Below the pieces are notes generated by a model. It did not search any database. It was not told the DNA's origin and saw only the letters and a list, made by a program, of their open reading frames with translations. A DNA stretch of 21,334 bases, taken from IMG/VR virus record IMGVR_UViG_3300020179_002076, positions 1 to 21,334 of that record; one strand, written 5' to 3'. Positions within the stretch are counted from its first letter, which is position 1. Each line of letters opens with the position of its first letter. Positions 648 through 21,280 of the stretch are shown one piece after another. Made by a program: the position numbers and the translations under genes. The DNA comes from a virus.

Positions 648-904
648 AATATGATATTGAAATGATTAGAACCATAGCTCGTTGCATGTATATAACTCCA
701 TTGGAACATATTCATACTGGATATGACTGGCCAACGAAGCAAAGGGAATGGGAAGCTTTATCTGAAGAACAAAAACAAATATGGTATGATAAAGCTTTGG
801 TTTGGTTAGATGATCTTAAAGAAAAAATGCCAGATGCATATGAGTTTTATATGACATATAGTATTCCTGATTTAGGTGATCGAAATCATCTTTTTAGTGA
901 TTGA
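644..904 (+). CDS. Small Trp-rich paralogous protein, member 2
   Basis: An 86-residue protein of unknown function that starts in an ATGA overlap with the preceding gene. The N-terminus carries the family motif TIARCMY (residues 10-16), and the core reads W-E-A-L-S-E-E-Q-K-Q-I-W-Y-D-K-A followed by a helix LVWLDDLKEKMPDAYEF. The same layout recurs in the proteins starting at 3438 and 5500. The last 19 bases overlap, tail to tail, the end of an ATP-grasp gene on the minus strand, an arrangement repeated twice more in the block. The predicted fold is small and all-helical, without membrane segments. The LS-x-E-E/D-K-x-x-W/Y-x-x-K-A pattern faintly recalls HMG-box helix 2, but that is too weak to name a function. 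Confidence 0.65.
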   Translation: MKYDIEMIRTIARCMYITPLEHIHTGYDWPTKQREWEALSEEQKQIWYDKALVWLDDLKEKMPDAYEFYMTYSIPDLGDRNHLFSD

Positions 905-1845
905 TATATGTCCACTGCATGGTCAATCATATGACCAGCAAGATTGCGAAATGAACAAGCTTCAGTCATTGGAAAATTGGCCGACGGATTTATCTCACAC
1001 AATTTCAATCCGTCTTTAGTTGGAAAAATGTCAACTCGACCCCATTCAATATTTAACGCATCTAATGATCTATTAATTAAATTTTGCATTTCACTAGATG
1101 CTGTTATTGGTAGCTGAACTCTTCCTTCAGCATTTGCAAAATTTGCTTTAAATTTTTCATAGCCCGTAAATGATGGGGGTATAGCCTGCATGGTTGCTTG
1201 AATATTGCGGCCACGTACAGCATGGGCTGTGATCATATAATTCAGATCAAGATATTCCTGTACTACCACTGTGGTATTGTGTTTCTTATTAAATGGATCT
1301 GTAGTAAGTCTGTTGTGAAAATCTTTGCTAGGTAAATGCTTTAGTAAATTACCAGCAACAGTATATAATTCGAATTCATCCTTGCAAAGGGTGACTCTTT
1401 CTGATCCTGCTGAAAATCTCCATTTAATTACGCACGGATATCCAATATTATTTTGTATTTCATCAACAGCATTTTCTGATGAAAGGTCAACAAATATAGT
1501 TTTTGCTGTTGGTATTCCAGCTTGCTCATATTTTTTGTGTGCATTGATTTTATCAAGAGCTTCAACATGAGGTTCAATATCAGTTACAAATATACTTCCG
1601 TGCTTTCTTAAAATTCCAATTTTTTTCAGACCAAGTGGATTCCATACAGCATGTCTCATTATAATAAGGTCTGGTGGTATAATCTTTTCATTGTTAATAT
1701 ACACATCATCACTTACAACTGTGCACATATACGGATTGACATGTAACGCTTCAAAACCCCTTTTGTTTAATTCATCCATAAATCGCCAAGTTTCATACCA
1801 ATGACTTTTCGGTGAAGGAGAAGTGAGAAGCCAAACTCTTTTCAT
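886..1845 (-). CDS. ATP-grasp ligase, RimK/glutathione synthetase-like, paralog 1
   Basis: A 319-residue ATP-grasp enzyme. This superfamily activates a carboxylate as an acyl phosphate with ATP and couples it to an amine or other nucleophile. Visible signatures, in order, are an N-terminal Rossmann-like segment starting MKRVWLLTS; the DK-x(n)-K-x-x-x-x-x-G-I-P linker (DKINAHKKYEQAGIPTAKT); the ATP-binding lysine strand YPCVIKWRFSAGSE; the adenine-binding VVQEYL strand; and the metal-binding acid pair RVDIF and CEINPS (residues 283-288). The gene starts in a 4-base ATGA overlap with the ATP-grasp gene upstream and has AGGA before the ATG. The 3' end overlaps a plus-strand small gene. Substrate and product are unknown; peptide, amino acid or small-molecule ligation are all possible. 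Confidence 0.85.
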   Translation of the reverse strand: MKRVWLLTSPSPKSHWYETWRFMDELNKRGFEALHVNPYMCTVVSDDVYINNEKIIPPDLIIMRHAVWNPLGLKKIGILRKHGSIFVTDIEPHVEALDKINAHKKYEQAGIPTAKTIFVDLSSENAVDEIQNNIGYPCVIKWRFSAGSERVTLCKDEFELYTVAGNLLKHLPSKDFHNRLTTDPFNKKHNTTVVVQEYLDLNYMITAHAVRGRNIQATMQAIPPSFTGYEKFKANFANAEGRVQLPITASSEMQNLINRSLDALNIEWGRVDIFPTKDGLKLCEINPSANFPMTEACSFRNLAGHMIDHAVDIYQSLKR

Positions 1846-2822
1846 TTAATATATCCTGAGGCATATTTTGCTATTTCAAATCCAAGATCCAAGTGGGGAT
1901 TTGAAATAGATAATTGCTTAAATCCACCATTTGTATTTAATTCAATTATAATATATTTTTCTCCATCATGCATAACATCTAATGTGGCCATTGCTAGATT
2001 TAATTTTTGACATGCTAATTCGCAAAGTTTTGCTAAATCATGCGGTATAATAAATTTTCTTCTATAAGAATTTTCTAGACGATTTGATACAAAAAAATCT
2101 GTCTCATTGATTGGGGTTCTTTGTTGAGCCGCCATAGCTTTAAAACCAACAACATGAACTCTTAGAATACCCATCCCAGATATTTTATGGTCTACATATT
2201 TTTGCGCGATTACTGATGCCGGCCATTGAGTACCAACAGGTACTCTAACATATCCATAATCACTTTTCATATCATAAAGTATCATGCAGGCATTAAACGC
2301 ATCCTCCTCATTCATACATTTAAAAACTGCTTGAGCATCACCTGTGCTTCTAGCTTTTATGACTAGAGGATAGCCTATCTCTATTCTCAAATCTTCCAAT
2401 TGAGATTTTAAGAATTCAATTTTTTCTCGTTTAAGTGGTAAATCTATTTTCACTGTTTTAGAAAAATTAATACCTTCTCTCATAAGCATTTCAGCTTGAT
2501 TCCATTTATCATGATATTTTATATGAGAGGTGGCATTATTAATTACAATAGTACCATTGGCTTCAATATCTAAAAGAGTTTTAGCTTCAACATCAAGCCA
2601 CGCTGGACAAGTATCTATCACCAATTTTGGTAGAGGTAGATTGGGAAGATCCGTTATTCTGTATACCCCAGCGTATATTCCAAGCTTATTAAATCCACTA
2701 CGAATATTCATAGGCGTCCAAATGGAAATATGAGTATCAATATTGATTGCCAATTCTTCTGCTCTCATCAATTCTTCATATTTTGCCGTATAACTTCTAG
2801 TTAATAACCAAACATCAAACAT
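1842..2822 (-). CDS. ATP-grasp ligase, paralog 2
   Basis: A 326-residue ATP-grasp protein if started at MFDVWLLTRS, which lines up with the MKRVWLL and MISVWIL starts of its paralogs and has GAGG a few bases upstream. A longer frame from 2864 exists but would run into the divergent gene. Family signatures are the DKWNQAEMLMREGINFSKT linker, YPLVIKARSTGDA (ATP-binding lysine), VIAQKYV (adenine strand), and ATLDVM...IIELNTNGG with the metal-binding Glu and Asn at about residues 294-296. It overlaps the next minus-strand ATP-grasp gene by four bases, so the two are probably co-translated. It has more sequence between the linker and the lysine strand than its paralogs. The ligated substrate is unknown. 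Confidence 0.82.
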   Translation of the reverse strand: MFDVWLLTRSYTAKYEELMRAEELAINIDTHISIWTPMNIRSGFNKLGIYAGVYRITDLPNLPLPKLVIDTCPAWLDVEAKTLLDIEANGTIVINNATSHIKYHDKWNQAEMLMREGINFSKTVKIDLPLKREKIEFLKSQLEDLRIEIGYPLVIKARSTGDAQAVFKCMNEEDAFNACMILYDMKSDYGYVRVPVGTQWPASVIAQKYVDHKISGMGILRVHVVGFKAMAAQQRTPINETDFFVSNRLENSYRRKFIIPHDLAKLCELACQKLNLAMATLDVMHDGEKYIIIELNTNGGFKQLSISNPHLDLGFEIAKYASGYIK

Positions 2823-2856
2823 ATATAACCTCGAATAGTTTTGGAGTTTGATATTT

Positions 2857-3438
2857 ATGGACATGTCTTATTTGAGTGTTGATGCTCCAGAATTTCAATG
2901 TCTGGTGAGAAAAGAATATCTTTATGATCACAAATATGGTCATGGTGAATATGTATCTGGTCGGGCCGTCGCAGTTTGTTTTAGAATTGGTATTGCTCCG
3001 ACATTTGATGTGCTAATGGACAATGGTGTCTTTTGGACAAGATTGCCAATAATTGCTTTATGCTGGAAAACAGATGCTGAAAAATTACCATTACATCATC
3101 ATGTGATGTGGGACTGCCATTCACAATTTGGTAATGTAAGAATTAGACCAGCATTTAAAAATATGAAAACAACTCTGCTATGTGAAGATGGAGTTTCAAG
3201 AGAAGGTAAATATTTGTTCACAGTTGAATGTGCATATCCAGATGGTAAAGCATATCCAGATCACAGAAATGTTTTGTCATTTGTAAAAACTGGACATATG
3301 TTTGAAGTCAATACTGGTCATTTTTTCATGTTTCCAAATTATAGAGTTTTATGGGGCGATAATCCAAATTTAGATAATATGCGTTATAAAATTGATAGCA
3401 AAACATATAGTGTTAGAGAATCATTGAAAGATAAGTGA
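2857..3438 (+). CDS. Conserved-looking protein of unknown function
   Basis: A 193-residue protein that I do not recognise. It is rich in aromatic residues, His and Cys, with segments such as LPLHHHVMWDCHSQFGN and NTGHFFMFPNYRVLWGD that look like beta-sandwich or jelly-roll strands; no catalytic motif is certain. ATG at 2857 is chosen because GGAG lies about 12 bases upstream; a TTG at 2848 and another ATG at 2863 are possible. The start is only 34 bases from the start of the divergent ATP-grasp gene, so their regulatory signals must lie inside each other's 5' regions. It ends in a GTGATG overlap with the next small gene, which suggests that the two are made together. Confidence 0.6.
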   Translation: MDMSYLSVDAPEFQCLVRKEYLYDHKYGHGEYVSGRAVAVCFRIGIAPTFDVLMDNGVFWTRLPIIALCWKTDAEKLPLHHHVMWDCHSQFGNVRIRPAFKNMKTTLLCEDGVSREGKYLFTVECAYPDGKAYPDHRNVLSFVKTGHMFEVNTGHFFMFPNYRVLWGDNPNLDNMRYKIDSKTYSVRESLKDK

Positions 3439-3719
3439 TGACTATATTATTAGAGGTTGCTCGGTCTCTTTATATTTTTTCCGAACCATCAAGAAGAATT
3501 GAAAATTGGCTTTATCTTCAGCATATAAATGAAGCATTTGCTGTAGACGAAAATTGGTGCAATCTATCAGATGACGAACGTCAAATTTGGTTAGATAAAG
3601 CAAAGCAGTATATGAATGAATTGAAATTACATTTTCCTGAGGTATATGAATCCATCATGAAAAATACAATTTGTGTAAATTCTAAGCCGATGTGGTGGAA
3701 GACCGATATTTCTGCATAA
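3438..3719 (+). CDS. Small Trp-rich paralogous protein, member 3
   Basis: A 93-residue member of the small family in this block. It has the N-terminal EVARSLYIF motif (residues 6-14) and the core W-C-N-L-S-D-D-E-R-Q-I-W-L-D-K-A (about residues 46-61), then a helix with LKLHFPEVYES. The C-terminus ends MWWKTDISA; member 4 likewise ends in a WW pair. The ATG at 3438 overlaps the stop of the gene before it. The last 38 bases overlap the 3' end of an ATP-grasp gene on the opposite strand. There is no signal peptide or membrane segment. The function is unknown; repeated pairing with ATP-grasp genes makes a substrate, carrier or adaptor role worth testing. Confidence 0.65.
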   Translation: MTILLEVARSLYIFSEPSRRIENWLYLQHINEAFAVDENWCNLSDDERQIWLDKAKQYMNELKLHFPEVYESIMKNTICVNSKPMWWKTDISA

Positions 3720-4656
3720 TATGATCCACTATATCTTTCGCAATATTCTCTCTACATGCAATTGATGGTATTCCAAATGCACCACTACCATTCAATTCGC
3801 ATACCTTATATCCATCATTAGTGACAAATATTTCGGCGCGGACAAAATCTAAACCTAATGCATCCAATGAAGATACAAAAATATTTGATGACTCATTTGA
3901 AGGCTTTTGTTGAATTGTCATGCCATATTTTTCAAATATATTTAGTAGAGGGCTATTTCTGTAAGTAGTTTTTTGTAAATGTGAACTCTTTCCATAGACC
4001 ATTGTTGTATAAAATTTATCTCTACCCGCACTTGTAAAAACTAACATGTATTTTGCATTTATTAATTCTTGTATCACAAATGATGTAGGTTTTGGCCGCA
4101 CCTTACCCATAATCATATCTAAAGATAATTGCATATTCTCAATTGCATATCTAAGATCATTTGGATTCATACATGTAAAAAGTCCGCCGGCACTCCAACC
4201 ATAATTTGGTTTGATAATACAAGGCCAACCTATATTTTCTTCAGCAGTTTTAATCATATTATCAATTGGCATTTTAATGTCAACACCAATTGTTTTGGGA
4301 ATTGGTATATTAGCAGTCTTTAATTTATGATACATCTTTATCTTATCAGTATATTCAATTATATTATCAGGATTATTTAATATGAATGTTCCCATTGATT
4401 GTAGCTTTTTCATTTTATGTTTCCAATAATCACCTGTCAAGAAAGTTTTTATCAATGCTATATCTGGTGCCTCAAGTAGCTCGCCCTCATATTCAAGGTA
4501 ATTGCTATCATTACGTATGATTAGACTTGGAGTATCAATAACCCTTACAATACATCCACGCTTTTCAAATTCTGTAGATAGTGTTGAATATTGATAGTGT
4601 GTTCTTAAATCTTTCCAATTAGAAAAATAATTACCTAATATCCACACGCTAATCAT
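3682..4656 (-). CDS. ATP-grasp ligase, paralog 3
   Basis: A 324-residue ATP-grasp protein. It starts MISVWILGNYFSNWKD, which aligns with the starts of paralogs 1 and 2, behind a good AGGAAG ribosome site. Signatures in order are YTDKIKMYHKLKTANIPIPKT (domain linker), WPCIIKPNYGWSAGG (ATP-binding lysine plus Gly-rich loop), FVIQELI (adenine strand), and VRAEIFVTNDGYKVCELNGSGAFG with the metal-binding Glu-Leu-Asn near residues 287-289. The catalytic set looks intact, so this is not a decayed copy. It overlaps the gene upstream by 4 bases (ATGA) and the small plus-strand gene at its 3' end by 38 bases. The substrate is unknown. Confidence 0.85.
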   Translation of the reverse strand: MISVWILGNYFSNWKDLRTHYQYSTLSTEFEKRGCIVRVIDTPSLIIRNDSNYLEYEGELLEAPDIALIKTFLTGDYWKHKMKKLQSMGTFILNNPDNIIEYTDKIKMYHKLKTANIPIPKTIGVDIKMPIDNMIKTAEENIGWPCIIKPNYGWSAGGLFTCMNPNDLRYAIENMQLSLDMIMGKVRPKPTSFVIQELINAKYMLVFTSAGRDKFYTTMVYGKSSHLQKTTYRNSPLLNIFEKYGMTIQQKPSNESSNIFVSSLDALGLDFVRAEIFVTNDGYKVCELNGSGAFGIPSIACRENIAKDIVDHIMQKYRSSTTSA

Positions 4657-5501
4657 CTTATACTTCCTATAATATAATCCGTAATAATTTTACCCATGTT
4701 TATTTCGTGAACTTTTTCAAATCCTTGAAAACCGCCGGGTGAATTTATCTCACATATGATATAACCATCATGATCAAATAATATATCAAGTCTTGCCAAT
4801 TCTAAACCAAAATGCGTAACGGCTGGTTCCACAGTTTTTCTTAGCTCATCAGTTATTGGATATGGTTTTCTTGATGATAGATGCTCTGGTTTTTTGTATG
4901 CTAAAAAGGAATTATCTCCATCTGGCGCCTTTGCGACATGCGCGCGTACTATACCATTGACCCAACCCAATGCCATATAATCACCAGAATAATTTATGTA
5001 TTTTTGTGCGATCATTGTGATATCACCAAATTCTTTAGAAAATCTTCGTGCAATTATATACAATTCATTTTCATCATGACACAATTCCACACCAATACCA
5101 TGTGCGCCATATCGTCTCTTTATCACACAAGGAAACCCTATTTCATCTCCAATTTTTTCCGCATACCAATTTTCAAATGGAATTGGTATTAATAGTGTCT
5201 TAGGTACTCGATAACCCATTCTCATTAATTCTTTATATTTTTTCCATTTGTCAGAAACAATATAATGTGCATCTAATTTGTTTATGAATCTGGTGCCACT
5301 TAATTCCATCTGTTTTAGTTTTGGATAGTCGCTGCCTTTGCAATTTCTGAGAATTGCAATATCAGCGGATTTAATTTTATCTGGTGTTAAAATTTCTACA
5401 TGCATATTGGCCTGTCGCAGATTATTTGCGATAGACTCCATTTCATACATTTCAGGACCAGGATTATGAATCAATGTTATCATCAAAATATATACCATCA
5501 T
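4653..5501 (-). CDS. ATP-grasp ligase, paralog 4
   Basis: A 282-residue ATP-grasp protein, the shortest of the five. Motifs seen are SDKWKKYKELMRMGYRVPKT, FPCVIKRRYGAHGIGVELC (ATP-binding lysine and a well-formed Gly-rich loop), MIAQKYINYSGDYMALGWV, and ARLDILFDHDGYIICEINSPGGFQGFE with metal ligands at about residues 251-253. Of the five it looks closest to classical RimK/D-Ala ligase-type grasp enzymes. The start is uncertain: ATG at 5501 overlaps the start of the divergent small gene, while ATG at 5483 (MITLIHNPG) gives a paralog-like N-terminus; neither has a clear ribosome site. The gene is translationally coupled to paralog 3. The product is unknown. Confidence 0.83.
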   Translation of the reverse strand: MMVYILMITLIHNPGPEMYEMESIANNLRQANMHVEILTPDKIKSADIAILRNCKGSDYPKLKQMELSGTRFINKLDAHYIVSDKWKKYKELMRMGYRVPKTLLIPIPFENWYAEKIGDEIGFPCVIKRRYGAHGIGVELCHDENELYIIARRFSKEFGDITMIAQKYINYSGDYMALGWVNGIVRAHVAKAPDGDNSFLAYKKPEHLSSRKPYPITDELRKTVEPAVTHFGLELARLDILFDHDGYIICEINSPGGFQGFEKVHEINMGKIITDYIIGSIR

Positions 5502-5766
5502 GAATAATCAGTTAATAATAACCATAGCCAGGTCGCTTTATTTTTCTGATGCGAACATTATGTTTGGTTGGCAAGGTTGGGCTTATAAGCAAGCGACAGA
5601 GTGGCGCAAGCTTCATGATCTATGGGACACAATGTCAGAAAATGAAAAGACTAAATGGATAAACAAGGCTAAAATAATTTTATCCGATATTAAATCTACT
5701 CAGACTGATTTGTATGAATTACTAGTCAATAATCAAATGGATGATGGTTTTCGTTGGTGGGCATAG
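5500..5766 (+). CDS. Small Trp-rich paralogous protein, member 4
   Basis: An 88-residue family member with the ITIARSLYF motif at residues 7-15, the core W-D-T-M-S-E-N-E-K-T-K-W-I-N-K-A, a helix IILSDIKSTQTDLYEL, and a C-terminus ending GFRWWA. The start lies back to back with an ATP-grasp gene on the minus strand, and its end overlaps another ATP-grasp gene tail to tail by 34 bases. No Shine-Dalgarno sequence is obvious. Like its paralogs it is predicted soluble and helical. The function is unknown. Confidence 0.65.
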   Translation: MNNQLIITIARSLYFSDANIMFGWQGWAYKQATEWRKLHDLWDTMSENEKTKWINKAKIILSDIKSTQTDLYELLVNNQMDDGFRWWA

Positions 5767-6659
5767 ACCATCTTTTGATATAGATGATCAACTAATATAT
5801 CTGATATATTTTTTAGATGTGTCATTGTGGCCCAACTATGGGATGCTTGAGGATTGACTTCGCATACCTTATATGTACCCTCATCTATCATTATATCCAT
5901 TCTTGCGGAATTAAGCTTCAAGCTTTTTAATACACCAGATGCTAAATTTTGAATTTCAAAATTGATCTTATAAGGTAAAGTTATCACATCCTTTCGCAGA
6001 TTACTTTTAAATGATCGATCATATGGATGAAACTGAACTACGGCATGATGTATATCACCAATACTGTGAACTTGAATAACAGTTTGATTAGTAACTAATT
6101 TTTGTATTATGATGGTATCAAATAGAGTCTCAGATAATTTGTGAATTTTTGCTATCTCATTTTTGTTTTTGATTATACGATATAGATCAAATGGAGTCTC
6201 GCATATTTCAACACCTATCTTACCATAACCGTGCATCCACTTTGCAACGCATGGCCATTCTATGGCATCAAGTATATTATCATCAAATGGTAATTTGAGA
6301 TATAGTGTTTTTGGTATGGGTATACCATCGCTTTCAAGTTTTTTAAATAATGCAATTTTATTTGACGCTTGATAATGAGCATCGATATCATTGAGAAAAA
6401 CTGTACCATAAGTTTCTAATGATTTTAGATTTTGATATATGTCATTACGAATAATCATTGCTCGCAAAAATACCATATTGGGCATTTCTACCTGCATATC
6501 TTTGTATGATAGATTTGGTGCAAATTTTAGCTTAAAAAGATCAACCGCCAAATGAGTAAATCCCTTTTGGCGAATTGATGAGCCTATTTCAGCATGATCA
6601 AAATTTTCTTCTAATGGAATATCTGGATAGCTATAATTTGCTGTCCATGCTATAGTCAT
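5733..6659 (-). CDS. ATP-grasp ligase, paralog 5
   Basis: A 308-residue ATP-grasp protein, the first of the minus-strand array in transcription order. Motifs are ASNKIALFKKLESDGIPIPKT (linker), WPCVAKWMHGYGKIGVEIC (ATP-binding lysine and Gly-rich loop), TIIIQKLVTNQTVIQVHSIG, and ARMDIMIDEGTYKVCEVNPQASHSW with Glu-Val-Asn near residues 267-269. The C-terminal helix (SDILVDHLYQKMVYA) resembles paralog 1 (GHMIDHAVDIY) and paralog 3 (AKDIVDHIMQKY), which supports duplication from one ancestor. No clear ribosome site is visible upstream. The 3' end overlaps the small plus-strand gene by 34 bases. The substrate is unknown. Confidence 0.84.
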   Translation of the reverse strand: MTIAWTANYSYPDIPLEENFDHAEIGSSIRQKGFTHLAVDLFKLKFAPNLSYKDMQVEMPNMVFLRAMIIRNDIYQNLKSLETYGTVFLNDIDAHYQASNKIALFKKLESDGIPIPKTLYLKLPFDDNILDAIEWPCVAKWMHGYGKIGVEICETPFDLYRIIKNKNEIAKIHKLSETLFDTIIIQKLVTNQTVIQVHSIGDIHHAVVQFHPYDRSFKSNLRKDVITLPYKINFEIQNLASGVLKSLKLNSARMDIMIDEGTYKVCEVNPQASHSWATMTHLKNISDILVDHLYQKMVYAHQRKPSSI

Positions 6660-12565: not shown

Positions 12566-12705
12566 ATAAAGTTACGCCTGAGTGGATAAGGTCCATTATC
12601 CCTCATACCGTATTCAATGCTGATCGAGAAAATTATCGCATTATCGCCGATGCGATGAAAAATTTATTGAAGGAACTTTCTCAATTGAGATCAAATGAAT
12701 TCTAA
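12556..12705 (+). CDS. Small protein (49 aa) upstream of radical SAM gene
   Basis: A 49-residue peptide starting MDINKVTPEWIRSIIPHTVF, mostly polar with a helical second half (YRIIADAMKNLLKELSQL). It overlaps the end of the gene before it by 10 bases and the start of the radical SAM gene by 11 bases, both in different frames. A peptide immediately upstream of and coupled to a radical SAM gene could be its substrate, but there are no obvious core residues such as repeated Cys, and it may equally be a simple phage peptide. Confidence 0.45.
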   Translation: MDINKVTPEWIRSIIPHTVFNADRENYRIIADAMKNLLKELSQLRSNEF

Positions 12706-13918
12706 ATTTGGTAATACTTCTTGTGGATTTATTTGGTCTGGTGTATCCACTGATACCATGGGTCGGTTACGCCCATGTTGCACTATAAATTCACCTCTGG
12801 TTGATAACAAAGGTGAGCCTTATAAAATAGATCGTATTGGTGATTTTGAAAGATTTTGGAAATCATCAACCATGCAAGAAATACGACAAGCTGGTCTAGA
12901 AAATAAATGGCATAAGCTATGCTTTAAATGTCAAGAGCAGGAAGAATCTGGTTCTTTTTCTCAACGTATGTTATACAATTATCTTCTTCCTAAAGAGACC
13001 GACAATATACCAAAAATTAAGGTATTCAATCTTTTATTAAGCAATAAATGCAATATGAAATGTAGAATGTGTAGTCCAAAAAATTCACACCTTATAGGCC
13101 GTGAATCAAAGACTCATGGGCTTCAGCATATATGGGGTAATGATGTTTGGGGTAATGATCAAACATCGATGTATAGTAATCCCGTATCCATAGATGATGT
13201 GGCTATGGTCGAATTGGTTGAGGCCTATCATTCTACTATAGAAGAAATACAATTTGCTGGTGGAGAGCCATTTTTATCTGATACACAATTTTTAGTTTTG
13301 AAAAAATTAGTTGATCTTGGTGTATCTGAAAAAATTACAGTGACATACAATACGAATGGTACCATACCTCTCGATCAATATTATGATTTGTGGTCCAAAT
13401 TTAAAAAGGTATCAATATCAATTAGCTTAGAAGCAATTGGTGATTTGGCTAATTACATTAGATATCCAACCAACTGGAATACTATTAATCGGGTAATGAC
13501 ATCGTTAAATTCTGCATCTACCGAAATTATTCGAGTTAAAGTTAACTGTCTGGTACAGGCCTTAAATGTACTTCGAATTCATGAATTGATTGAATATTTA
13601 AGTCAATATAATAATATATGTCCGTTACCATCATTTAGCACTCTTGTTTTACCCAAACATCAACATTTGAGAAATATTCCGCAAAAATTGAGAATAGTTT
13701 CAGCAGAAAAAATTGAAAATTTATTATCAAAAATTTCAAGTCATAATTGGTTTATGCAATTTTCTATTGATAGAACCAAAAAAGTAATACATCACATTAA
13801 GACTGAACCTGATATCGAAGATATTAGTCAATTTATTAAATTCAATAGAACCTTAGACAAGGTTAGAAAAACTAATCTACTTGATGTGCTACCAGAATTA
13901 TCTCCATATATCAGATAG
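12695..13918 (+). CDS. Radical SAM protein with Cys-rich N-terminal (twitch-like) region
   Basis: A 407-residue radical SAM enzyme. The [4Fe-4S] motif CNMKCRMC is at residues 119-126 and the AGGEPF SAM-binding motif at about 188-193, with TYNTNGT and SISLEAIGD as later barrel strands. Unusually, about 118 residues precede the cluster motif. They hold cysteines at 28, 29, 76 and 79 (RPCCTIN and CFKCQ), a pattern like auxiliary Fe-S 'twitch/SPASM' sites, here placed at the N-terminus. The reaction is unknown. The gene is more AT-rich than the genes before it and resembles the left ATP-grasp block. It might act with those ligases on a common modified molecule, but they are about 6 kb apart and this is only a hypothesis. 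Confidence 0.85.
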   Translation: MNSKFGNTSCGFIWSGVSTDTMGRLRPCCTINSPLVDNKGEPYKIDRIGDFERFWKSSTMQEIRQAGLENKWHKLCFKCQEQEESGSFSQRMLYNYLLPKETDNIPKIKVFNLLLSNKCNMKCRMCSPKNSHLIGRESKTHGLQHIWGNDVWGNDQTSMYSNPVSIDDVAMVELVEAYHSTIEEIQFAGGEPFLSDTQFLVLKKLVDLGVSEKITVTYNTNGTIPLDQYYDLWSKFKKVSISISLEAIGDLANYIRYPTNWNTINRVMTSLNSASTEIIRVKVNCLVQALNVLRIHELIEYLSQYNNICPLPSFSTLVLPKHQHLRNIPQKLRIVSAEKIENLLSKISSHNWFMQFSIDRTKKVIHHIKTEPDIEDISQFIKFNRTLDKVRKTNLLDVLPELSPYIR

Positions 13919-15557: not shown

Positions 15558-15791
15558 ATGCCGACATATAACATAGAAGATACCAATACGGGTGTCGTGG
15601 TCACAGAAATGATGTCTGTGGCTGAAATGGAACAGCTTCTCAAAGACAATCCGCACAAGAGGCTGGTCTTAGGATTCCCTAAGATTGTATCTGGGGTCGA
15701 TTCCAAGCATAATAAGCCGTCTGAAGGCTTTCGCGATCTTCTTAAGACAATCAAGAAGCACAATCGAGGGTCTACCATGAATACGTGGTAG
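15558..15791 (+). CDS. Conserved T4-type phage small protein
   Basis: A 77-residue protein starting MPTYNIEDTNTGVVVTEMMSVAEMEQLL. The MPTY start resembles FmdB-like zinc ribbons, but the cysteines are absent, so it can only be a zinc-less relative or unrelated. The C-terminal half (FPKIVSGVDSKHNKPSEGFRDLLKTIKKHNRGSTMNTW) is a pattern I recall from T4-like cyanophage and relatives. A GAGGAG ribosome site precedes the ATG. It lies directly before phoH. The function is unknown. Confidence 0.62.
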   Translation: MPTYNIEDTNTGVVVTEMMSVAEMEQLLKDNPHKRLVLGFPKIVSGVDSKHNKPSEGFRDLLKTIKKHNRGSTMNTW

Positions 15792-15832
15792 GCCTATTTT
15801 TATCATGGACACCCAAATATAGGGAGCCACAA

Positions 15833-16627
15833 ATGGGTCTTTCGCATACTGCTAACTTCGAACACGAATTTCTGCCGGAATTTCTCACTAGAACACAGAA
15901 AAAGCGACTAAAAAAGCATCAACGGCACGAAAAATTAGTAAAAGCAGTAAATAAGACTCAAAATGCTCAAAATTTTATGCAATTACCAAAAATCAATCCT
16001 CTAACATCCGGTCAGGCTCGAACATTTCAGGCCTTTGATGACGGAAAAAATCTAATTTTGCACGGTGTGGCCGGTACTGGTAAGACTTTTATGTCTCTTT
16101 ACCTTGCACTTCGCGCTGTTTTAGATGGTGATACACCAAAACCGGTCGTAATTATCCGCTCTGTGGTGCCTACTCGTGATATGGGATTTCTTCCAGGCAC
16201 ACAAAAAGAGAAATCTGCGGTTTATGAGGAGCCGTATTCGGCCATCTGCAATGAATTATTCAAGCGTCCAGGCATTTATGATAACCTGAAGCGCGATGGA
16301 ACCATTCAATTTGCCACCACATCATTTCTTCGCGGCTTGACATTTAAGGATAACATTGTTATAGTTGATGAATGTCAGAATATGACATTTCATGAACTGG
16401 ATTCTGTCATTACTCGCATGGGTACTGGGTGCAGAGTTATCTTCTGTGGTGACTTTCGCCAGAGTGACCTCTGGAGAAATGATGAACGAGAAGGTCTACA
16501 TACATTCATGTCTGTCATAAAGCACATGCGTAGCTTTGCGCGCGTGGAATTTACGAAAGATGATATCGTGAGGTCTGATCTTGTGCGTGAATATATCGAG
16601 GCAAAGTTGGAAGAAGGGCTTGTGTGA
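15833..16627 (+). CDS. phoH: PhoH-like P-loop ATPase
   Basis: A 264-residue PhoH-family protein, common in T4-like and marine myophages. The start MGLSHTANFEHE (15833) has AGGGAG upstream; a longer frame from 15785 is possible. An N-terminal basic helix (TRTQKKRLKKHQRHEK) precedes the ATPase core. Walker A is GVAGTGKT (residues 78-85), Walker B is IVIVDECQN (about 175-183), and IIRSVVPTRDMGFLPGTQKEK and GDFRQSDL are typical PhoH elements. PhoH proteins are RNA-helicase-like ATPases; in phages the role is not settled and they are often found with nucleotide or RNA metabolism. The stop overlaps the GTG start of the nuclease gene. Confidence 0.9.
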   Translation: MGLSHTANFEHEFLPEFLTRTQKKRLKKHQRHEKLVKAVNKTQNAQNFMQLPKINPLTSGQARTFQAFDDGKNLILHGVAGTGKTFMSLYLALRAVLDGDTPKPVVIIRSVVPTRDMGFLPGTQKEKSAVYEEPYSAICNELFKRPGIYDNLKRDGTIQFATTSFLRGLTFKDNIVIVDECQNMTFHELDSVITRMGTGCRVIFCGDFRQSDLWRNDEREGLHTFMSVIKHMRSFARVEFTKDDIVRSDLVREYIEAKLEEGLV

Positions 16628-17292
16628 AATTTATTCATGAGTTAGTGGATCTACCTGAGCTTACCGCGGTCCAAACAGATCGCGGTAGGCTTTACAATAC
16701 CCCATCTGGTGAAGCATATCCTTCGATCACCACAGTTCTTGATGCTAGATCCGAAAAGAAAAAATTAATTATGGAATGGCGTGCTCGTGTCGGTGAGCAA
16801 GAGGCCAATCGTGTTTCCACACAAGCTTCTCGGCGTGGCACTTCCATTCACACCATGATGGAAAAATATATTGTTGATGAGAATCCTATTAAGAATGAAA
16901 TGCCCAGCAATATTGCGATGTTCAATTCTATTCGCAGCAAGGTAGATAAGTATCTATCTCATGTCTATGCAATGGAAGCACCATTATATTCCGACAAATT
17001 GAAAATTGCTGGCCGATGTGATCTTATTGGTAAATGGGCTGGTACAGATTGCATTATCGATTTCAAAACATCAAAACGTCTCAAAGAAGAGGCTTATATT
17101 GATAACTATCTTTTGCAGGCCACGGCCTATTCTCTCATGTTTGAGGAGCTAACTGGTCGAGAAATACCAGGTATTGTCATTCTTATAGGCGTGGATGATG
17201 AGGATAAGCCTCAAATGTTTTGTCGATATCGTGACAAATATGTGGAGAAATTATGTGATGTCATACTTGAATATCACAAAGGTAACCGTTGA
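16624..17292 (+). CDS. PD-(D/E)XK exonuclease, MGME1/RecB-like
   Basis: A 222-residue nuclease that starts with GTG in a GTGA overlap with phoH. Motifs are the YPSITTVLDARSEKK N-terminal helix, RRGTSIHTMMEKYI (His76 and Glu80), KIAGRCDLIG with the catalytic Asp133, and CIIDFKTSKR with Asp146 and Lys148, followed by NYLLQATAYSLMFEEL. This order matches the single-strand-specific MGME1-like/RecB-type exonucleases that T4-like phages often carry. It probably acts in phage DNA replication or host DNA breakdown. The gene ends right at the tmRNA promoter. Confidence 0.85.
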   Translation: MKFIHELVDLPELTAVQTDRGRLYNTPSGEAYPSITTVLDARSEKKKLIMEWRARVGEQEANRVSTQASRRGTSIHTMMEKYIVDENPIKNEMPSNIAMFNSIRSKVDKYLSHVYAMEAPLYSDKLKIAGRCDLIGKWAGTDCIIDFKTSKRLKEEAYIDNYLLQATAYSLMFEELTGREIPGIVILIGVDDEDKPQMFCRYRDKYVEKLCDVILEYHKGNR

Positions 17293-17317
17293 CATTTTAT
17301 CACAAACCCTTTATAAG
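17289..17317 (+). promoter_or_regulatory. Promoter TTGACA-N17-TATAAG for tmRNA
   Basis: A perfect TTGACA at 17289-17294, a 17-base spacer, and TATAAG at 17312-17317, directly upstream of the tmRNA acceptor piece. The same TTGACA-N17-TATAAG combination precedes gene 32, so the phage appears to use a second promoter class different from TGTACA. Confidence 0.75.
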
Positions 17318-17323
17318 TAGTAT

Positions 17324-17600
17324 TGTCATTGTTGATGGCGATGTAATAGATACTACGGACCGCGGGGCAGTGCCGCGCAGCTCCACCAAATTATGACCGT
17401 GACCTCTGCCCTAGGTACGTCACGGTTTTCTCTGGGGCTGAAACAGAATCGACGGGTATGGTAAAGATTGACCGGAGATGGCGGCTAGCAGCCTAACTGC
17501 TATTGATAAGTGCCAATGACAACGGCTTTGCCGTAGCACTCGCTGCCTAATAGGTAAGCGCGGTTTGAGGAGCACCGGGCAACAGAAGCTCCTCACCCTA
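17324..17600 (+). ncRNA. ssrA: Two-piece (circularly permuted) tmRNA
   Basis: tmRNA rescues stalled ribosomes by acting as tRNA-Ala and then as a short mRNA for a degradation tag. Here the gene is permuted: the acceptor piece comes first. It holds a T-arm CGCGG-GGCAGTG-CCGCG (17370-17386 region) and ends CAGCTCCACCA at 17388, with CCA encoded. A 45-base intervening segment follows, containing a perfect 8-bp hairpin ACCGTGAC/GTCACGGT (17396-17426). The coding piece starts GGGGCTG at 17434; it pairs with CAGCTCC over seven base pairs, including the G3-U pair that alanyl-tRNA synthetase reads. It continues AAACAGAATCGACGGG, the conserved tmRNA signature, then a stem TAGCAG/CTGCTA (17486-17502), the tag, and a stem GAGGAGC/GCTCCTC (17567-17594). 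The outer ends are approximate. This permuted form is known mainly from alphaproteobacteria. Confidence 0.93.
17512..17550 (+). other. tmRNA proteolysis-tag reading frame
   Basis: The frame GCC AAT GAC AAC GGC TTT GCC GTA GCA CTC GCT GCC TAA encodes ANDNGFAVALAA, to be added after the alanine carried by the tmRNA. The AANDN start and the A-L-A-A end match known tags: alphaproteobacterial tags start AANDN, and many tags end LAA or VAA for ClpXP. A second stop, TAG, follows at once. Confidence 0.88.
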
Positions 17601-17646
17601 CTCAATGTATCTTTTTGACTAGGGCCACAACAGAAGGATAAACATC

Positions 17647-18225
17647 TTGATGGAAAGGATTGTAAGCGTTGCCTTGGGCGCGCTCATAGGTATAGCTTTA
17701 ACTGTTTTTGCAGTAGATAACACATATCACTCGGCAGAAGCAGCACCAAGAGCTATTCAGGTCAATACTGAAAATGCGAGAATTAGTATTCCGAAATTAG
17801 ATATCGGTATTGATCTAACCCCACCAGAATTTGAGGGTATAATTACGACAAGTCAGGCTGATGTGCATTGTATGGCACACGCTATATACTACGAAGCTCG
17901 TGGTGAGAGATTTGTTGGTATGTTAGCTGTGGCTAGTGTAATTATGAATCGAGTAAATGATCCAGATTATCCTAATACAATCTGTGGCGTGACTCGTCAA
18001 AGGATAAGAAATACTTGTCAGTTTGAATATTATTGTAAAGTCGGTAATCGAGTTCCTGCACCACATGATCCGCAATGGCAGATGGCAAATGATATCGCAT
18101 TGCATGTCATAAATGGAAACCTTCCTGACATTACTGACGGCGCAATTCGTTTTCATGCAATCAATAATCAATCACCGCAAAGAAATGCAATTCGCATAGG
18201 TTCACACCTATTTTATAGGAGATAG
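17647..18225 (+). CDS. Exported SleB-like cell wall hydrolase (endolysin candidate)
   Basis: A 192-residue protein. Residues 1-32 form a signal peptide or signal-arrest segment (IVSVALGALIGIALTVFAV, then an AEA-A cleavage-like site). The rest is a Hydrolase_2/SleB-type peptidoglycan hydrolase domain starting CMAHAIYYEARGE, where the first Glu of YYEARGE (residue 83) is the expected catalytic residue. It is followed by VGMLAVASVIMNRVND, the CQFEYYC pair of cysteines and the ITDGAIRFHAINNQSP segment. SleB-type enzymes are lytic transglycosylases. In a Gram-negative phage a signal-bearing version would work without a holin pore. TTG at 17647 has AGGA at better spacing than ATG at 17650. Confidence 0.8.
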   Translation: MMERIVSVALGALIGIALTVFAVDNTYHSAEAAPRAIQVNTENARISIPKLDIGIDLTPPEFEGIITTSQADVHCMAHAIYYEARGERFVGMLAVASVIMNRVNDPDYPNTICGVTRQRIRNTCQFEYYCKVGNRVPAPHDPQWQMANDIALHVINGNLPDITDGAIRFHAINNQSPQRNAIRIGSHLFYRR

Positions 18226-18228
18226 AAT

Positions 18229-19059
18229 ATGAGTTTTTATGATAATTGCCGTAATGATTTGAATTTGAGTGTGATTGCCGGTCCTTGTGTATTTGAATCG
18301 AAGCAACATGCGCTTGATCTGGCGGGTGCTTTGTCTGAAGTTTGCAAGAATCTAAATGTAAACTACATCTATAAGACATCATTTGATAAGGCCAATCGAA
18401 CCAGCATCACATCTTATCGTGGTGCTGGTTTTGATGAAGCATTTTATGGTATTACTGCTGTGCAAGAAGTATTAGGACTTGAAGTTTTGACCGATGTACA
18501 CGAATCTTGGCACTGCGAAACCGTTCCTGCGAATATCCTGCAAATTCCAGCATTTCTTTGCAGACAGACTGATCTACTTGCATCGGCGGCCGCATCTGGT
18601 AAGCCGGTAAATGTCAAAAAGGGTCAGTTTTTATCTCCGCGCCAGATGGTAAACATTGTGCATAAGCTTGAAACCACTGGATGCACAAAGGTTATGATGA
18701 CTGAGCGCGGCACTACATTTGGTTATAATGATCTTGTGGTTGATATGAGATCGCTTGCGATTATGCGCGGCAATACTCCTATGAATTATCCAGTTATTAT
18801 GGATTGCACTCATGCAGTTCAATCGCCTGGTGGTAATGGTATTTCATCTGGTGGCAATCGTGATATGGTTCCTGTGATTGCTCGCGCAGCAACTGCCGTC
18901 GGTATTGCTGGTGTATTCATGGAAGTGCATCAAGACCCAGATAATGCTCCGTGCGATGGTCCTAATATGCTCCACTTAGCCAATTTTAAGTCTGTACTTG
19001 AGCAGCTACTTGAGATAGATTATGTCGTGAAAGCACATATTTCGTTTAAAGGGGAATAA
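18229..19059 (+). CDS. kdsA: KdsA: 3-deoxy-8-phosphooctulonate synthase
   Basis: A 276-residue enzyme that condenses arabinose 5-phosphate and phosphoenolpyruvate to Kdo-8-phosphate, the precursor of the Kdo sugar of lipopolysaccharide. Family signatures are SVIAGPCVFES (residues 14-24), YKTSFDKANRTS, LTDVHE, FLCRQTDLL, VNVKKGQF, MTERGTTFGYNDLVVDMR, THAVQSPGG and HQDPDNAPCDGPNML. Cys20 in IAGPC marks the metal-dependent class; E. coli KdsA has Asn there. The PGG-SGG-VPV pattern and HQDPDNAP resemble alphaproteobacterial KdsA. All key residues look intact, so it should be active. It has a GGAG ribosome site and lies 4 bases after the hydrolase gene. Likely an auxiliary gene for host-envelope or phage sugar chemistry. 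Confidence 0.93.
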   Translation: MSFYDNCRNDLNLSVIAGPCVFESKQHALDLAGALSEVCKNLNVNYIYKTSFDKANRTSITSYRGAGFDEAFYGITAVQEVLGLEVLTDVHESWHCETVPANILQIPAFLCRQTDLLASAAASGKPVNVKKGQFLSPRQMVNIVHKLETTGCTKVMMTERGTTFGYNDLVVDMRSLAIMRGNTPMNYPVIMDCTHAVQSPGGNGISSGGNRDMVPVIARAATAVGIAGVFMEVHQDPDNAPCDGPNMLHLANFKSVLEQLLEIDYVVKAHISFKGE

Positions 19060-19060
19060 T

Positions 19061-19444
19061 ATGAAGGTTGGTAAGGTTTGGGGTAATACTGAGGATCTGT
19101 TTACCTCACCCAATGTCGAAGTGCATCGCATTAATACAAAGGCTGGGTTTCGTTGTTCGCTACATGGTCATCGCTATCGTTGGAATGGCTTTTATGTGAT
19201 TAGTGGTGTCATCGAAATTCACACCGAGAAGCAATATGGTCTCACCGATGTAACTGTTCTTCGCGCTGGCGACTTTACTGCGGTGCCACCAAATGAAGTG
19301 CACTGTTTTGTTTGTACAGCCGATGCTCAGGCACTTGAAATTTACTGGCCCCAGCATATGGAATCGATTGATATTGTTCGCAAGGATGTTGGTGGTCTTG
19401 TCGCATCACTTTCAAATAAGATTGTAGATAATAATGACTCCTGA
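19061..19444 (+). CDS. Cupin-domain protein
   Basis: A 127-residue single-domain cupin. Motif 1 is CSLHGHRYRWNGFYVISG (two His and the later Tyr/Gly) and motif 2 is LRAGDFTAVPPNEVHCF with the third His. The pattern resembles mannose-6-phosphate isomerase C-terminal or sugar-binding cupins and usually binds a divalent metal. It begins one base after kdsA behind an AGGGGAA ribosome site, so it is almost certainly co-expressed. A role with a sugar or sugar phosphate linked to Kdo synthesis is a fair inference, but the substrate is unknown. It overlaps gene 33 by 11 bases. Confidence 0.75.
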   Translation: MKVGKVWGNTEDLFTSPNVEVHRINTKAGFRCSLHGHRYRWNGFYVISGVIEIHTEKQYGLTDVTVLRAGDFTAVPPNEVHCFVCTADAQALEIYWPQHMESIDIVRKDVGGLVASLSNKIVDNNDS

Positions 19445-19673
19445 GTTACCTATTATGACTCCAGAAAGGTTTACTTGCACCGTCGAAAGGGTGGTGATCG
19501 AGAAGAATATGACCTATCTGGATGCTATTATGCATGTTTGTGACTTCACTGGACTTGAAGTCGAGATGATTCCTCGACTCCTTACCCCAAGAATTAAGAA
19601 AATTATTACAAGTGAGGCCAACGGGCTTAATCTACTAAAGCGTAAGCCCAGTGAGGTCAGGTTACCAATCTGA
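19434..19673 (+). CDS. 33: Late transcription coactivator gp33-like
   Basis: A 79-residue protein that matches the T4-type gp33 layout: PERFTCTVERVVIEKNMTYLDAIMHVCDFTGLEVEMIPRLL, then ITSEANGLNLLKRKPSEVRLPI. In T4, gp33 binds the RNA polymerase beta flap, links the sliding clamp to gp55-polymerase and activates late promoters. It is shorter than T4 gp33 (112 residues) but similar to the cyanophage-type versions. The position immediately before gp59 and gp32 is the T4 gene order and is strong support. The start could be 19434 or, in frame, 19455. Confidence 0.8.
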   Translation: MTPELPIMTPERFTCTVERVVIEKNMTYLDAIMHVCDFTGLEVEMIPRLLTPRIKKIITSEANGLNLLKRKPSEVRLPI

Positions 19674-19684
19674 GGATGGAAGGT

Positions 19685-20263
19685 ATGAAAGCATACCAAG
19701 AATACGTTGCCTTGCGGCTGCACTTTACGCAGGACAAGTATGACTATTTTAAATATTTCGGTAAAGTCAAGACCATCAATAATTCTACGTTTGAGGCACG
19801 AAATGATGTATTTCATTTTCGTCGCCTTGAGCGCAGATATAAAGATGATCTGACAGCATTCTATGTTGCGAATATGTCTCAAGGTATCAGATTTATTCGC
19901 GAGATGGTTACTGTGGAGGCCGAAAAGCGATATGTCGATTGGAAACGGCATATGGAATCTCTCACATATCGCTTCAAGCAAGATATGCAAAATGTGGCTG
20001 AGAATTGCAAGGATGTAAACAAGGCTTGGTCAACAAGCGGTGATCATCCAGAAATTCTTCGACTATATCTTGGTGGCAAGGTCTCGATTGAGAGTCTTAT
20101 TCTCTCTGATCGAGTGCTAAAGTTTCAAGATAACTGGGATACTCGCATCACAGATACTATCATCTGGCCAGATGTGTCCAGACTCATGAGAAAGTATGGA
20201 CCATTTGTAAAAGCAGATAATGATGCGATAAAGAAAACCATGCGTCAAGTGTTTATTGCTTGA
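19685..20263 (+). CDS. 59: DNA helicase loader gp59-like
   Basis: A 192-residue protein resembling T4 gp59, which loads the replicative helicase gp41 onto gp32-covered forked DNA. The N-terminal AYQEYVALRLHFTQDKYDYFKYFGKV corresponds to the YKLYLMIKQHMNGKYDVIKY region of T4 gp59, followed by RNDVFHFRRLERRY, FYVANM and a C-terminal half with ILRLYLGGKVSIESLILSD. ATG at 19685 (MKAYQEY) is preferred because GGAAGG precedes it; ATG at 19676 is possible. It lies between gp33 and gp32 as in T4, and its stop overlaps the promoter of gene 32. Confidence 0.85.
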   Translation: MKAYQEYVALRLHFTQDKYDYFKYFGKVKTINNSTFEARNDVFHFRRLERRYKDDLTAFYVANMSQGIRFIREMVTVEAEKRYVDWKRHMESLTYRFKQDMQNVAENCKDVNKAWSTSGDHPEILRLYLGGKVSIESLILSDRVLKFQDNWDTRITDTIIWPDVSRLMRKYGPFVKADNDAIKKTMRQVFIA

Positions 20264-20359: not shown

Positions 20360-21280
20360 ATGTCTAACGATTTCGCTTCACTCAAGCGTTCTACCACCAG
20401 CAATCTTGATCGGCTCTCTAAGGAGCTAGGTAAGCTTGCTACTAACGGCAATCAGCGCGAATCCGATGATCGCTTTTGGCAACCCGAGGTTGACAAGGCT
20501 GGCAATGGTTATGCCGTCATTCGGTTTCTTCCTGCTGCAAAGGGTGAGGACCTGCCTTGGGTTCGCATCTGGTCGCACGGCTTTCAGGGCCCCGGTGGTT
20601 GGTACATCGAAAATTCTCTGACGACTCTCGGTCAGAAGGACCCTGTCGCCGAGCTTAATTCTAAGCTGTGGAATAGCGGCACCGATAAGGACAAGGAGAT
20701 TGCTCGTAAGCAAAAGCGTCGCCTTTCTTACATCGCTAACGTCTATATTGTTAAGGATCCTGCAAATCCTCAGAATGAGGGTAAGGTGAAGCTATTCAAG
20801 TTTGGCAAGAAGATTTTCGACAAGATCAATGAGCTGATGACGCCTCAGTTTGAAGATGAGAAGGCTGTTAACCCCTTCGATTTCTGGGCTGGTGCGAATT
20901 TCAAGCTGAAGATTCGCAATGTTGAAGGTTATCGCAACTATGACAAGTCTGAGTTTGATCGCTCGGAGCCTCTGTCAAGCGATGATTCCGAGCTGGAGAG
21001 CATTTGGAATTCTCAGCACAAGCTTCAGGCCTTTGTTGCTCCTGATCAATTCAAGAGCTATGATGAACTGAAGGCTCGTCTTGACAAGGTTCTGAATGAG
21101 ACTAGCGCACCTCGTCGTCGCGACAATGATGAGGATAATGAGCGTGAGGTTGCTCCCGCGCGCTCGAGCGCGGAGACTCGGACTCGCGCTGCTGAAGCTC
21201 CTAAGGCCGCGACTTCTCGCGCACCTTGGGAAGATGACTCAGATATTGGTCTTTTTGAGCGTCTTGCTCAGGACGACTAA
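20360..21280 (+). CDS. 32: Single-stranded DNA-binding protein gp32
   Basis: A 306-residue T4-type ssDNA-binding protein that coats single strands in replication, recombination and repair. The N-terminal LKRSTTSN (residues 8-15) corresponds to the basic LAST motif used for cooperative binding. The core has YAVIRFLPAAKGEDLPWVRIWSHGF, then GGWYIENSLTTLG, the KRRLSYIANVYIVKDPANP strand and NEGKVKLFKFGKKIFDKI, all matching T4 gp32. The T4 zinc ligands C77, C87 and C90 are missing: the region reads SLTTLGQKDPVAELNSKLW, as in zinc-less cyanophage-type gp32. The linker (SAPRRRDNDEDNEREVA onward) is charged, and the end (WEDDSDIGLFERLAQDD) is the usual acidic tail that recruits partners such as gp59. 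Confidence 0.93.
   Translation: MSNDFASLKRSTTSNLDRLSKELGKLATNGNQRESDDRFWQPEVDKAGNGYAVIRFLPAAKGEDLPWVRIWSHGFQGPGGWYIENSLTTLGQKDPVAELNSKLWNSGTDKDKEIARKQKRRLSYIANVYIVKDPANPQNEGKVKLFKFGKKIFDKINELMTPQFEDEKAVNPFDFWAGANFKLKIRNVEGYRNYDKSEFDRSEPLSSDDSELESIWNSQHKLQAFVAPDQFKSYDELKARLDKVLNETSAPRRRDNDEDNEREVAPARSSAETRTRAAEAPKAATSRAPWEDDSDIGLFERLAQDD

Follow-up and report, generated by a model that had tools for sequence, protein, structure and literature searches.

The window analysed here, a 21,334-nucleotide virus fragment from IMG/VR (record IMGVR_UViG_3300020179_002076), derives from a T4-like phage and carries a real, well-preserved gene for a two-piece tmRNA. Judging from its sequence, we regard it as likely that this gene makes a functional tmRNA of the alphaproteobacterial type, which would work with the SmpB, AlaRS and proteases of the host and whose benefit to the phage would be free ribosomes. 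Phage copies of ssrA offer a way to ask whether viruses gain from ribosome rescue, and this question could be put to a simple laboratory test, given that the gene has a conserved place, that the tags keep their ends while their bodies vary, and that the gene seems to depend on the SmpB of the host. As far as the literature was searched, the conserved place in relatives beyond the phage Melnitz and the contrast in tag length are modest additions to what has been reported.

Anatomy of the tmRNA gene and its proposed promoter

The initial annotation had claimed a complete permuted tmRNA gene at 17289-17624, and this is confirmed by Rfam, ARAGORN and direct reading. The model searches and the ARAGORN run that it had proposed both returned a tmRNA. 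The Rfam model RF01849 (alpha_tmRNA) matches the plus strand at 17285-17597 over the full model (1-355), with 139 bits against a cut-off of 50 and an E-value of 2.2e-38, and RF04321 (tmRNA_permuted) matches at 17327-17550 with 100.7 bits against a cut-off of 47. The ARAGORN call, likewise a permuted tmRNA, spans 17296-17641 and includes the full tag ANDNGFAVALAA followed by two stops. The parts of the gene and its neighbours are collected in Table 1.

Table 1. Positions of the tmRNA gene parts and of neighbouring phage genes in the window
Feature	Positions	Strand	Basis
PhoH-like protein (phrog_170)	15785..16627	+	profile match
PD-(D/E)XK exonuclease (phrog_298), upstream neighbour, left marker of the conserved place	16624..17292	+	profile match
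Promoter-like site TTGACA, 17-nt spacer, TATAAG; overlaps exonuclease stop codon	17289..17317	+	consensus scoring
tmRNA acceptor piece, 5' end approximate	17319..17388	+	Rfam, ARAGORN, direct reading, fold
Intervening spacer, 45 nt	17389..17433	+	Rfam, direct reading, fold
tmRNA coding piece: acceptor 5' strand GGGGCTG, TCGACGGG, tag region	17434..17600	+	Rfam, ARAGORN, direct reading, fold
Tag reading frame ANDNGFAVALAA, then TAA TAG	17512..17553	+	ARAGORN (coding part 217-258 of gene), direct reading
Cell-wall hydrolase / endolysin (PF07486, phrog_938), downstream neighbour	17647..18225	+	profile match
gp33-like late promoter transcription factor (phrog_254), right marker of the conserved place	19434..19673	+	profile match
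gp59-like helicase loader (phrog_269)	19676..20263	+	profile match
gp32-like single-strand DNA-binding protein (phrog_224), bait for relatives	20360..21280	+	profile match

The acceptor piece holds the T arm CGCGG-GGCAGTG-CCGCG and ends at 17388 with the acceptor 3' strand CAGCTCC, the discriminator A and an encoded CCA, as read in the sequence. It joins the coding piece by seven acceptor pairs that include G3-U70, and A73 is present; the seven-base pairing with its G3-U alanine identity pair, as previously described, can thus be seen directly. The intervening hairpin is likewise borne out, being a perfect 8-bp stem within the spacer (17396-17403/17419-17426) that also appears in the minimum-energy fold, and the spacer with its hairpin would be expected to be removed on processing. 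A second 8-bp hairpin lies near the 3' end of the tmRNA (17566-17573/17588-17595), and the end of the coding piece is approximate, with Rfam stopping at 17597 and ARAGORN at 17641. The tag claimed earlier is recovered by ARAGORN, its codons at 17512-17547 specifying 12 residues with an LAA end, a small hydrophobic degron, before the tandem stops TAA TAG. When 17319-17600 was folded, 3 of 200 shuffles did equally well or better (z -2.2). The T loop GGCAGTG fits the alpha-type pattern GGC[AG]GT[AG], which is found in 15 of 17 distinct bacterial rows, so that covariance match, permuted order, G3-U70 with A73, tag and T loop are all those of alphaproteobacterial two-piece tmRNA.

A promoter belonging to the gene itself, also proposed in the initial annotation, is plausible. 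Its -35 element TTGACA (17289-17294) and -10 element TATAAG (17312-17317) agree with the consensus at 11 of 12 bases, and sites of at least 11 of 12 number three on the plus strand of the whole window, this one included, and one on the minus strand. It is absent from the output of a stricter promoter scan of the window because that scan accepts only T as the final base of the -10 element, and here this base is G. In a comparison of 20 rows (the window, 16 viral contigs, Melnitz, Mosig and HTVC008M), five, namely the window, L019, L024, L037 and Melnitz (L245), have a site that scores 11/12, has a spacer of 17 nt and lies 7 to 11 bases ahead of the point where the ARAGORN call starts; among 200 random 100-mers drawn from each of those five records, 0.5 to 4.5% reach 11/12. 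The other 15 rows have best promoter scores of 7 to 10; for 13 of them, a quarter or more of the random draws score no worse. The promoter is therefore supported for the window, not for the group as a whole.

The phage and the conserved place of the gene

The window is contained in a 51,430-bp contig (IMGVR_UViG_3300021376_003159, L242), with which it is 99.99% and 99.92% identical in two overlapping parts. This contig bears T4-type baseplate and tail genes and, to the left of the window, eight tRNA genes (Gln, Leu, Met, Arg, Ile, Val, Tyr and Lys; L242 5689-8034), and the phage therefore supplies tRNAs besides the tmRNA. The top gp32 matches among named phage records are Synechococcus and Pelagibacter phages; three such records were checked, and all are filed under Kyanoviridae, each with a named host. 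The flanks had been described as replication and lysis-type genes, which agrees with the exonuclease upstream and the cell-wall hydrolase downstream of the tmRNA.

A nucleotide search with the tmRNA neighbourhood returned 27 records, the 20 matches listed all lying in PhoH (cyanophages and Melnitz), while the tmRNA alone matched three mycobacteriophage records weakly (E 0.1). Because nucleotide matches were poor, relatives were collected through gp32 similarity (the best 80 of at least 600 matching viral stretches) and through a tmRNA pattern that fixed part of the acceptor stem (at least 119 stretches). ARAGORN made calls in 23 of 119 stretches of the pattern set, of which at least 119 exist, and 22 of these calls were permuted; it also found a permuted tmRNA in 20 of the 80 gp32-selected loci, the best 80 of at least 600. 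In all 20 tmRNA-bearing loci from this best 80 of at least 600, the tmRNA and gp32 share a strand, the tmRNA being the upstream one, and a gp33 match separates them; the exonuclease, found in 12, is upstream of the tmRNA in every one, and a search for gp59 gave no match in two. Exonuclease and gp32 occur together in 31 loci of the same best 80 of at least 600; a tmRNA is called in 12 of them and none in 19, so the wider group manages without it. The exonuclease and gp33 starts are 0.65-0.8 kb apart in 14 of these 19 tmRNA-less loci (again from the best 80 of at least 600), which means that the two genes adjoin there, and the other five comprise three loci without a gp33 match, L026 with a cut exonuclease and L078 with a distance of 1.8 kb. 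When 14 loci that lacked an ARAGORN call were put through Rfam, a single truncated permuted tmRNA emerged, lying at the edge of L028; a further one may exist at the edge of L043, where a tag-codon match was seen.

Five named records were also searched with ARAGORN. Three of them, Melnitz, Mosig and HTVC008M, hold a permuted tmRNA, in each case preceded by the exonuclease, and no tmRNA was called in cyanophage S-B05 or marine virus AG-345-L05. The window tmRNA sits in this same place, between the exonuclease and gp33-gp59-gp32.

Several other genes were observed in the window. Positions 3-410 encode a SufE-like Fe-S metabolism protein (PF02657, E 2e-33), and 12695-13918 a radical SAM protein (PF04055, phrog_14086). 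Five genes for RimK-like ATP-grasp ligases lie on the minus strand within 886-6659, interleaved with four small plus-strand ORFs (438-647, 644-904, 3435-3719 and 5500-5766) that are weakly alike (20-37% identity to the first) and gave no match in a PHROG search. Together they may form a peptide-modifying, graspetide-like cassette. Between the endolysin and gp33, at 18229-19444, a DAHP-synthase-family gene, which we take to be KDO8P-synthase-like, is followed by a cupin (mannose-6-phosphate isomerase-like) gene, and homologues of this pair are also found upstream of gp33 in L005 and L012.

Covariation, tags and origin

The seven acceptor pairs and G3-U70 are present in all 43 viral rows, the window included; 20 of the 43 were obtained with the pattern described above, in which the acceptor stem was partly preset. 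Seven viral rows were left out, namely four copies of the window, L016 (cut at the locus end), L148 (a 31-residue tag) and L152 (called one-piece), as were 12 bacterial rows without a clear seven-base acceptor. In the 33 distinct viral rows, 99.5% of the stem cells of the acceptor and T stems pair, a figure biased upward because ARAGORN, which selected the rows, itself seeks paired stems; shuffled controls pair at a mean of 77.7% and a maximum of 81.3% (1000 shuffles). Two to four standard pair types occur at 7 of the 12 stem positions in the distinct rows. The acceptor and T stems of the viral tmRNAs thus appear to covary, which supports selection, although it does not prove it.

The tags end in AA in 32 of the 33 distinct viral cases and in LAA in 29, with middles and lengths that vary; their common ends are partly a matter of descent. 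Ten or 14 residues are found in 28 of the 33, and 12 residues in 23 of the 39 distinct alphaproteobacterial tags sampled, against one of the 33 viral tags (Fisher p 2e-7, a value overstated because the tags are related by descent). A 14-residue codon pattern, ANDN.....YALAA, was found in 11 of 341 gathered loci, all viral or phage (two of the 11 are the same Melnitz stretch), and in none of 385 alphaproteobacterial genomes. The altered tag might then be the very purpose of the gene, directing products to another protease or adaptor, or hastening amino-acid recycling from host proteins. Both the viral lengths and the exclusively viral pattern would suit this explanation, and the tagging of host proteins for recycling is suggested in the available part of PMC9004378. 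However, the length trend does not apply to the window, because the sole 12-residue viral tag is its own; hosts may bear identical tags, kinship inflates the p-value, and the comparison omits the 12 dropped bacterial rows as well as 23 bacterial loci without an ARAGORN call. For these reasons we consider retargeting unlikely as the account of the window gene and prefer ribosome rescue.

In its T loop and 12-residue tag, the window sequence is of the chromosomal alphaproteobacterial type, while 24 of the 33 distinct viral rows have other T loops, mostly of the TTCGA or TGCGA type. Its 139 bits fall below the alpha_tmRNA scores of the bacterial matches listed (251-313) and also below the best match in each of 30 small genomes (143-221), although a few bacterial genomes gave E-values that were weaker still. 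The window row stands on the bacterial side in three trees, of which the first, under a narrower rule, lacked no fewer than 19 rows, including many from phages, and the second was wider. Phage rows were held together in 0 of 200 bootstrap trees, and L033, L050 and HTVC008M also join bacteria (in a tree of 20 of 39 phage and 30 of 68 bacterial rows). A single phage tmRNA clade was not rejected by the AU test (p 0.27), with long branches and the window in no well-supported set. Separate capture of the window tmRNA is possible.

The bacterial side of the trees is also where a host ssrA copy would stand if it had been acquired by chance, as the remnant of an integration site or through an assembly error, and had no role in the phage; genomic islands often integrate into ssrA, as noted in the available part of PMC11915505. 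Yet phage genes lie on both sides, the two overlapping parts of the 51-kb contig agree with the window almost completely, the tmRNA occupies the same place in relatives and isolates, and no integrase was found among the contig and window proteins scanned, which cover part of the ORFs. Nor is the copy fresh, since the closest row from a bacterium matches it at 69% identity over 223 nt. Chance acquisition is accordingly very unlikely, and a tmRNA retained by the phage remains the preferred reading.

The host is probably an alphaproteobacterium. A genome pattern scan gave 25 loci, mostly from Rhodobacteraceae and Planktomarina, and this group was considered as host and rejected; the trees do not place the window row with it, and therefore no host is named beyond that probable class. 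We also put forward, as a speculative and rather improbable scenario, that T4-like phages of heterotrophic bacteria have an old ssrA place under selection for altered tags, mostly of 10 or 14 residues, which would steer products to chosen host proteases or adaptors. In the phage of the window, a host-type tmRNA whose tag has 12 residues would have filled this place anew in a separate event, and phages would thus exchange one rescue tag for another when they change host.

Proposed function and known systems

On the preferred reading, host RNA polymerase would transcribe the tmRNA from its promoter, and host tRNA-processing enzymes would cut out the hairpin spacer, leaving an acceptor piece ending in CCA and a coding piece joined by base pairing. 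The RNA would be charged by host AlaRS through G3-U70 and carried by host SmpB to ribosomes that have stalled on messages which are broken or lack a stop codon, where translation would switch to the tag, and the tagged product would be cleared by host proteases of the ClpXP type. The likely gain would be that ribosomes stay free during message destruction, in a phage with at least eight tRNAs of its own. No SmpB match was found in 22 short viral records (5-51 kb) or in five phage records of 141-209 kb, four of which are complete by title (Melnitz-1, Mosig, HTVC008M and S-B05); the same search was positive in 10 of 14 control genomes. If it works, the RNA must therefore use SmpB, AlaRS and proteases of the host, a dependence that we infer from what is known of trans-translation.

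Use of host SmpB would also suit a decoy, in which host trans-translation is lowered because the phage RNA occupies SmpB or ribosomes of the host, as has been proposed for the DS6A molecule. That molecule consists of a tRNA-like domain only and is described as an inhibitory form in the available part of PMC4131195, and a DS6A-like molecule inhibits tmRNA, perhaps by titrating SmpB, according to the same part and to that of PMC11915505. A decoy needs neither a tag frame nor tandem stops, an LAA end or an alanine identity pair, all of which the window keeps, and the nearly constant AA end of the viral tags also speaks against it. We hold this to be the least probable of the explanations weighed, and favour a working rescue RNA.

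Two-piece phage tmRNA is already a known kind, since 2022, and the window is a rather divergent example of it. The belief expressed in the initial annotation, that phage tmRNAs are one-piece, is outdated. The available part of PMC9004378 describes a two-piece tmRNA in the OM43 phage Melnitz (2022), counts 53 two-piece among 133 unique tmRNA structures called by ARAGORN in phage genomes, and proposes that phage tmRNAs keep the hijacked machinery running or tag host proteins. The permuted tmRNAs of the Pelagibacter phages Mosig and HTVC008M contradict that belief as well. According to the parts available of the respective sources, a permuted tmRNA model has been built and viral genomes also searched (PMC11915505), phages of Bradyrhizobium elkanii carry tmRNA genes (PMC12656738), mycobacteriophage Wildcat expresses no other lytic gene as strongly as its tmRNA (PMC7474061), and the pelagiphage Skadi is described as lacking a tmRNA (PMC10504331). 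Of the literature matches listed, in which subscription journals are thinly covered, none put a two-piece phage tmRNA to an experimental test.

Older examples, in Bxz1, Wildcat and phage G, are probably one-piece. Like the window gene, they are phage-encoded, in mycobacteriophages (Bxz1, Wildcat and others) and in Bacillus phage G, as stated in the available part of PMC4131195.

Among the isolates, Melnitz (MZ577095) resembles the window in having a permuted tmRNA between PhoH-exonuclease and gp33-gp59-gp32 homologues, with a TTGACA-17-TATAA. promoter at the same offset. It differs in its spacer (142 nt versus 45 nt), in its tag ANDNYVPVDYALAA and in having no endolysin match directly after the tmRNA. 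It also has a reported glutamine riboswitch, to which the window has no counterpart; such a riboswitch (glnA) in the 3' domain was considered and dropped, with no match in 17200-17750 at E-values up to 10. As in the window, the permuted tmRNA of Mosig (MT647606) and that of HTVC008M (KC465899) follow the exonuclease and precede gp33; the two phages differ from the window in their tags (GEDNFALAA and ANFNEYALAA, respectively) and in having no annotated endolysin between tmRNA and gp33. The public record of Mosig annotates SsrA in the matching gene neighbourhood, and the HTVC008M gene (L327 7121-7462, KC465899) is absent from the features annotated for that stretch.

The chromosomal alphaproteobacterial tmRNA (RF01849, for which a control match was found in Caulobacter) shares with the window the order of the pieces, the T loop, the 12-residue tag, G3-U70 and the encoded CCA. 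The window gene differs in sequence, the closest bacterial rows reaching about 65-72% identity with it, in its spacer, which measures 45 nt against a chromosomal median of 24 nt, and in being housed in a phage.
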